Source: Homoserinimonas sp. (GTDB lineage: Bacteria; Actinomycetota; Actinomycetes; Actinomycetales; Microbacteriaceae). From it: a DNA stretch of 64,000 nt. This document shows, one piece after another, positions 43,711 to 44,115 of this stretch. Positions within the stretch are counted from its first letter, which is position 1; each line of letters opens with the position of its first letter. The notes beneath the pieces were generated by a model that did not search any database, was not told the origin of the DNA, and saw nothing but the letters and a program-made list of their open reading frames with translations. The translations under genes were made by a program, and so were the position numbers. Location of the stretch: positions 489,575 to 553,574 of the forward strand of contig JAMLGP010000001.1 of the NCBI GenBank assembly GCA_023957835.1. The letters run 5' to 3'.

Positions 43711-43739
43711 GTCTAAACTATCTAGCGAAACTTTAGGGG

Positions 43740-43772
43740 TTGTGCTCTCGCTCGAAGTGCGGGATATAAGTT
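43740..43772 (+). promoter_or_regulatory. Possible promoter upstream of the rod RNA
   Basis: TTGTGC (43740-43745) and TATAAG (43765-43770, spacing 19) or TAAGTT (43767-43772), with TGCGGGA before the -10. It would give a plus-strand RNA starting near 43778 that runs through the hairpin at 43803 into the rod at 43922-44115 (about 340 bases). No start codon or ORF follows. Confidence 0.3.
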
Positions 43773-43802
43773 GAACCGAGGAGGTCAAACTCCAAGGTAA
43801 TA

Positions 43803-43842
43803 GAAAGCCTCCAGAAGCTACTCGTAGCGACCGGGGGCTTTC
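43803..43842. terminator. Strong symmetric hairpin, likely bidirectional terminator
   Basis: GAAAGCCTCC (43803-43812) pairs with GGGGGCTTTC (43833-43842), 10 bp with one G-U, and encloses a second stem GCTAC-TC-GTAGC. The A-tract/T-tract ends are the mark of a two-way intrinsic terminator. It would end the DUF488 transcript or a minus-strand RNA from 44 kb. Confidence 0.6.
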
Positions 43843-43921
43843 GCCTTTAAGTTACTAGTTTTCGCTCAGTCGCTCACTCTGCGAGGCAGGAGCCATAGAA
43901 CCAGCGTGGCAACCCCCTTTT

Positions 43922-44115
43922 GGGGACAGCGCGCATCTTTGCTTGGCAACTAACCTAGAAACACGCAATACGGGGGGTACCCGGAGGCGGTAGCGAACAA
44001 GAAGCTAATAGCGAGGTTACGGGGGTAATTCGCGACAGTGCTTCGGTTCAGAGACTACCGCCTCCGTACCATTTAACCCGGAGTTTCGGCCAGACCTGAG
44101 GCGCTCCGAGTCCCC
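43922..44115. ncRNA. Candidate structured RNA folding into one long rod
   Basis: No ORF. The whole 194-base interval between convergent genes pairs with itself in nested order. GGGGA/TCCCC (43922-26 with 44111-15), GCGC/GCGC (43931 with 44101), TGGC/GCCA (43944 with 44089), GAAAC/GTTTC (43958 with 44083), CGGG/CCCG (43971 with 44077), GGTAC/GTACC (43976 with 44066), an 11-bp stem GGAGGCGGTAG/CTACCGCCTCC (43983 with 44055), GAAC/GTTC, GAAGC/GCTTC, GCGA/TCGC and TTAC/GTAA around a GGGG loop (44021-24). Length and rod shape resemble 6S or Ms1-type RNAs. tmRNA, RNase P and SRP signatures are absent. Strand and expression are unknown. Confidence 0.55.

Follow-up and report, generated by a model that had tools for sequence, protein, structure and literature searches.

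A conserved family of predicted G-tract small RNA genes in Microbacteriaceae and its possible link to 6C RNA

6C RNA is a well-known C-loop small RNA (sRNA) of actinobacteria, and in mycobacteria, where it is called B11, it controls virulence-related genes. C-rich sRNAs can be titrated by sponge RNAs in other Gram-positive bacteria, as SprY does with RNAIII in Staphylococcus aureus; to our knowledge, no sponge is known for 6C, widespread as it is among actinobacteria. In Mycobacterium abscessus, B11 represses eccB4 by pairing either of its C loops with a six-G tract, as shown by compensatory mutation (PMC10470900). A further Gram-positive sponge of a C-rich sRNA has been reported for RoxS in Bacillus subtilis (PMC8216469). 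Ms1 lies beside HAD hydrolase and oxidoreductase genes in an intergenic region of more than 300 nt (PMC9130861). A literature search of open-licence papers found neither a 6C sponge nor a description of the RNA considered here.

We analysed a 64,000-nucleotide stretch of DNA (the window, to which coordinates refer) from a 2.07 Mb actinobacterial genome (G000), whose relatives are Microbacteriaceae. An earlier sequence-only reading had proposed that positions 43922-44115 form a single rod from end to end and may be an undescribed RNA. Judged from sequence comparison, the conserved unit is very probably a genuine plus-strand sRNA gene at about 43962-44076 (~115 nt; ~105-120 nt across the family), which we call the G-tract RNA. 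The features of the locus are as follows:

43912-43931, plus strand: upstream dyad box ACCCCCTTTTGGGGACAGCG, consensus ACCC-N5-TGGGG(A/G)CAGCG, near-invariant in 26 non-redundant loci
43951-43956, plus strand: predicted -10 element TAACCT (TAnnnT), at a fixed distance in homologues
43962-44076, plus strand: small RNA, predicted transcript of ~115 nt (covariance model matches in 32/350 genomes, covariation, z -5.37, no conserved ORF)
43972-43977, plus strand: G tract 1 (GGGGGG), close to the 5' end; in most genera it forms the loop of a 5-bp hairpin, but it does not sit in that hairpin in the genus of G000
43983-43993, plus strand: 5' arm of the 11-12 bp GC stem, with compensatory changes at 7/12 stem pairs
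44017-44028, plus strand: apical hairpin UUAC-GGGG-GUAA with G tract 2 (44021-44025); ACGGGGGU nearly invariant
44055-44065, plus strand: 3' arm of the GC stem, with compensatory changes at 7/12 stem pairs
44066-44076, plus strand: 3' tail GUACCAUUUAA, AGUAUUUAA / AAGUUUUU in homologues; a short U-rich run after the stem in most

The segment 43922-44115 folds with -78.3 kcal/mol (z -3.59) and is more stable than all 200 of its dinucleotide shuffles, consistent with the earlier claim of a fold beyond chance. Two elements described earlier are present, namely the uninterrupted 11-bp stem (43983-43993 with 44055-44065) and, at 44021-44024, the central GGGG tetraloop; in four mapped relatives of the same genus, this stem is conserved, as are the apical pairs. 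The rod itself did not stand up. The minimum free energy structure is branched, with its ends paired, and in the four relatives only 45 of 116 cells of the outer pairs (43922-43958 with 44077-44115) are retained, while the GGGGA/TCCCC end pairs mostly lie opposite gaps. Moreover, the left outer arm (43922-43958) overlaps the conserved upstream DNA box and the -10 element, the right arm is non-conserved flank, and the GGGGA taken for the rod end is the right half of the dyad box. Given that the outer pairs are lost in relatives and the left arm lies in promoter DNA, the end-to-end rod is a coincidence of promoter DNA with flank. Variation that does not preserve pairing, named beforehand as evidence against a structured RNA, was thus found for the outer stems but not for the inner ones, whose pairing is preserved. 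The core (43962-44076) folds alone with -49.0 kcal/mol and, at z -5.37, is relatively better than the whole 194-base stretch (z -3.59).

Compensatory changes across relatives, which the sequence-only reading had called for, are present in an alignment of 27 homologues (A4). Standard pairs occupy 85.4% of the cells of the stated 25-pair structure, and pairing falls to 27-59% when partners are slid by 1-3 columns. Double-sided changes occur at 14 of the 25 pairs against a shuffle mean of 8.0, with none of 500 shuffles as high, although such counts are inflated by relatedness and pairs 42-45 with 102-105 of A4 are poorly aligned. RNAalifold, run without a supplied structure, recovers this 12-bp stem too, and 7 of its 12 pairs have changed on both sides. 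This stem is the firm part of the structure. Apart from it, homologues share only internal loops that are short and variable and an apical stem of 4 bp, in which UAC/GUA is swapped for CAC/GUG in two loci (L042, L046). The constant anatomy consists of the dyad box, TAnnnT, a 5' GGGGG tract, the 12-bp GC stem with UACGGGGGUA as its cap, and a tail that is short and U-rich. A 5' hairpin is clear in ~20 of the 27 sequences (variants CUAGU/ACUAG, CCAGU/ACUGG and CUGGU/ACCAG) and absent in the genus of G000 and in genus g76. No ORF within the RNA is conserved across homologues, and an encoded peptide was rejected on this ground.

The family was delimited from a DNA search of 149 relatives, in which two stretches of this intergenic region proved conserved. 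Seven homologues of the second stretch were picked by hand to build an alignment (A1) and a covariance model (R1). At E<=0.01, R1 matches in 32 of 350 genomes of Microbacteriaceae, a family of soil and water bacteria; the matches come from 11 genera, so that only part of the family keeps the RNA, and inspection of the two weakest matches (L139, L140) revealed the full anatomy. Samples of the order and class returned only G000 and one match at E 0.003 (G768), which we rejected as a family member: it is without the two G tracts and the anatomy, and is at chance-level expectation in 297 genomes. Exact pattern matches to the 5' hairpin occur in Pseudolysinimonas, Homoserinibacter, Schumannella and Protaetiibacter, as well as in MAGs; cultivable carriers include Pseudolysinimonas kribbensis and Homoserinibacter gongjuensis (L048, L049). 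The neighbours of the RNA are SNF2 helicase, DUF488 and DUF2510 genes, and in G000 its reported position between convergent genes holds (DUF488 on the plus strand, DUF2510 on the minus strand). An SNF2-helicase gene on the same strand lies just upstream of the RNA at no fewer than 24 of 30 loci, and the upstream gene in most homologues is SNF2 and not DUF488; the other loci include a truncated contig (L027) and one that keeps DUF488 and the neighbouring 111-aa gene (L024).

Neither strand of the region matched any Rfam 15 family, whether at gathering score or at thresholds up to E 10, and eight homologous or related loci gave no match either. The same holds for tmRNA, RNase P and SRP RNA, whose signatures had already been noted as missing. 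The RNA family is therefore new and absent from Rfam 15, while its kind, bacterial structured sRNAs, is known. Together with the compensatory changes in homologues, the lack of any match at E 10 supports the suggestion of an undescribed RNA.

In 26 non-redundant loci the dyad box sits at a fixed position 33-45 nt upstream of the start of the RNA model (CCC at -45 to -43, GGGG at -36 to -33), followed at fixed spacing by TAnnnT; variants of the latter include TATCGT, TAATCT and TACATT. Further upstream, information is at background (0.14 bit per column). The sequence suggests that the box is likely an activator or -35-region site, with a predicted transcription start at about 43962-43964. Dyads of the form ACCC-N5-TGGGGG, often with a second CCCC-N-GGGGG dyad before them, lie upstream of the RNA promoter in the window (43912-43931) and in L018-L047. 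The box sequence has its sole exact genomic match at 43912-43931, and in a genome scan for ACCC-N5-TGGGG near matches with two mismatches were overall no commoner than those of a reversed-pattern control; a regulon of this box was rejected, as the genome holds no second high-confidence site. At the other end, the 3' tail, which is weak, is likely the end of an intrinsic terminator; a simple terminator scan did not call it. The two strands are about equal in fold stability, and the plus strand is favoured because of the upstream box and -10 element, the U-rich tail after the stem, and the covariation, in which the stem shows U-G pairs.

Another non-coding unit, 'RNA A', is conserved upstream of the G-tract RNA (43715-43849, plus strand). 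It has a promoter box (C/A)AACTATCTAGCGA(A/G)ACTT, a -10 resembling TATAAG and a short RNA whose end is AAAGCCTCC...GGGGGCTTTCGCCTTT, is 86-87% identical in same-genus genomes, has no Rfam match, and in other genera carries a conserved CUCGACGAACC...GGAACGCGG motif. The same long CAACYATCTAGYGARACTT box recurs downstream of the G-tract RNA in many genomes (L022, L025, L026, L028, L029, L032-L036); G000 has no other copy with fewer than three mismatches. Given this recurrence, a few RNA genes with a promoter element in common seem to be clustered in the intergenic region.

The most constant residues of the RNA in the 27-homologue alignment are its two GGGGG tracts. Five G's of tract 1 are invariant in 27 of 27 homologues. 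Both tracts are predicted to be exposed: the mean probability of being unpaired is 0.64 for tract 1 over homologues (0.49 in G000) and 0.89 for the apical tetraloop, versus 0.15 for other G's. Because the loop G's are invariant even where the 5' hairpin is absent, the functional part would be the G tract rather than the hairpin, and we think it reasonably probable that the RNA acts through its G tracts. By prediction, the locus thus combines its own promoter, a conserved structure, an exposed conserved seed, the lack of an ORF and a terminator with a weak tail, as is generic for trans-acting sRNAs.

Which RNA the G tracts might pair with is less certain. A 6C model built from Microbacteriaceae sequences (R3) finds 6C in 275 of 350 genomes, far more widely than the G-tract RNA, and in G000 at G000:C1:71114-71195 (L127). 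All 32 carriers of the G-tract RNA have 6C, versus 243 of 318 other genomes (Fisher p 3e-4 by genome), an association that is not significant by genus (p 0.10), the fairer count. The CCCCCC loops of 6C can pair with the G tracts, and in all 11 genomes in which both were read UUGGGGG of the RNA is the exact complement of CCCCCAA of 6C. Among genomes with UCGGGGG in the RNA, 6C loop 1 is CCCCCGA in three, all from one genus, and five keep CCCCCAA, leaving a C-A mismatch; because of these five, the loop covariation rests on one clade and counts as one event. The complementarity is also partly generic, as a run of G's will pair with whatever run of C's it meets, and the bases flanking tract 1 differ in the genus of G000 and in g76. 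Whole-RNA duplex energies with 6C are uninformative owing to GC content. Complementarity and co-occurrence suggest a 6C partner and fall short of proof; that 6C is the principal partner is a tentative reading, to which we give somewhat less than even weight.

6C in Microbacteriaceae mostly scores below the Rfam gathering cut-off (above it in 5 of 150 genomes), so that annotation pipelines tend to miss it. Many 6C promoters (upstream of L104-L118) share a dyad, CCTCC-TTTT-GGAG, just before TACACT; a regulator box common to 6C and the G-tract RNA was rejected, since this dyad is a different one.

The model we propose is as follows. A free-standing sRNA gene would have its own promoter at ~43962, probably a regulated one, and be read rightwards from there; the transcript would end near 44076 in the GC hairpin, which would double as terminator. 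The two exposed GGGGG tracts, of which the first lies close to the 5' end and the second tops the long hairpin, would base-pair with C-rich RNA in the cell. The likeliest partner would be 6C, with two CCCCCC loops, encoded in every carrier genome. With its loops taken up by this pairing, 6C would no longer hold down the G-tract mRNAs that it represses; we infer this direction of effect, which would make the G-tract RNA a 6C sponge or co-regulator. The stricter form, a dedicated 6C antagonist that mirrors it with G loops, pairs loop-to-loop and has its own regulated promoter, is doubtful.

The strongest competitor, if still rather unlikely, is an sRNA acting in trans, its G tracts binding C-rich stretches in particular mRNAs so that ribosome sites are blocked or exposed, with 6C not the main partner. 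The exposed invariant tracts and the RNA's own promoter box also fit this, and that carriers are a subset of 6C-bearing genomes is as expected for lineage-specific targets; against it, no second high-confidence site of the upstream box suggests a regulon. A protein-binding or scaffold RNA, with the G loops as recognition elements for RNA polymerase (as in 6S/Ms1) or for the neighbouring SNF2 helicase, would agree with the strong conserved structure, the small variable internal loops and the SNF2-family ATPase gene that adjoins the RNA at no fewer than 24 of 30 loci. However, the RNA is too short for 6S or Ms1, has neither a conserved open bubble nor a 6S match, and is found in few genomes, whereas RNA polymerase regulators are usually broad; gene neighbourhood, moreover, need not imply partnership, and we consider this improbable. 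Lower still we place an element acting as DNA, with the G/C-tract palindromes as operators or the hairpin as a shared terminator of the convergent genes found in this window. The palindromic G-tract sequences and upstream ACCC-N5-TGGGG dyads do look like protein sites, and ATACGGGGGTAT and CTAGTTGGGGGACTAG resemble CsoR/RcnR-type sites, but an operator does not need a 12-bp stem that changes by compensatory pairs including U-G, and a terminator has no need of a promoter box or of invariant G's in its loop; the terminator scan calls none, and the gene upstream in most homologues is SNF2 rather than DUF488. A 194-nt end-to-end rod of the 6S or Ms1 type, favoured by the paired segment ends in the minimum free energy fold, is hardly credible with outer pairs lost in four relatives, a left arm that is promoter DNA, and failed size, synteny and covariance-model tests.

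Whatever the partner, this adds a covariation-supported RNA family beyond Rfam 15 in Microbacteriaceae, for which our literature search found no sRNA catalogue. If the G-tract RNA does titrate 6C, it would offer a natural handle on the role of 6C across actinobacteria, including mycobacteria, and its promoter would show when 6C activity drops. An RNA shown to act against 6C would be more unusual than an ordinary structured sRNA.

How does the G-tract RNA compare with described systems? The likeness to 6S and Ms1 suggested by the sequence-only reading reduces to both being structured, free-standing RNAs. The unit is a long GC-rich hairpin with a short 5' G-loop element, of ~115 nt (~105-120 nt in the family), and its synteny is different. 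6S RNA (RF00013) was rejected, as the Rfam model gives no match and a large central open-promoter-like bubble is not conserved; Ms1 was rejected on size and because HAD hydrolase and oxidoreductase neighbours are absent at the locus.

6C (RF01066) is closer. Both are small actinobacterial sRNAs with two hairpins presenting homopolymer loops and a GC stem near the 3' end, and they occur in the same genomes. However, 6C has C-tract loops and ~80 nt, the RNA described here has G-tract loops and ~115 nt, and sequence, promoter and locus differ. The putative transcribed strand carries G tracts in place of two loops with about six C's, Rfam RF01066 gives no match at the locus up to E 10 on either strand, and R3 and the Rfam model place 6C elsewhere in carrier genomes. 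A divergent 6C on the minus strand, which would have C loops, was likewise rejected: the 6C of G000 is encoded at another site, and it is the plus strand that carries the promoter and the tail. The RoxS sponge and SprY are compared here on working principle, not on sequence: a G-rich segment would titrate a C-rich seed, with the target and effect of the G-tract RNA a proposal.
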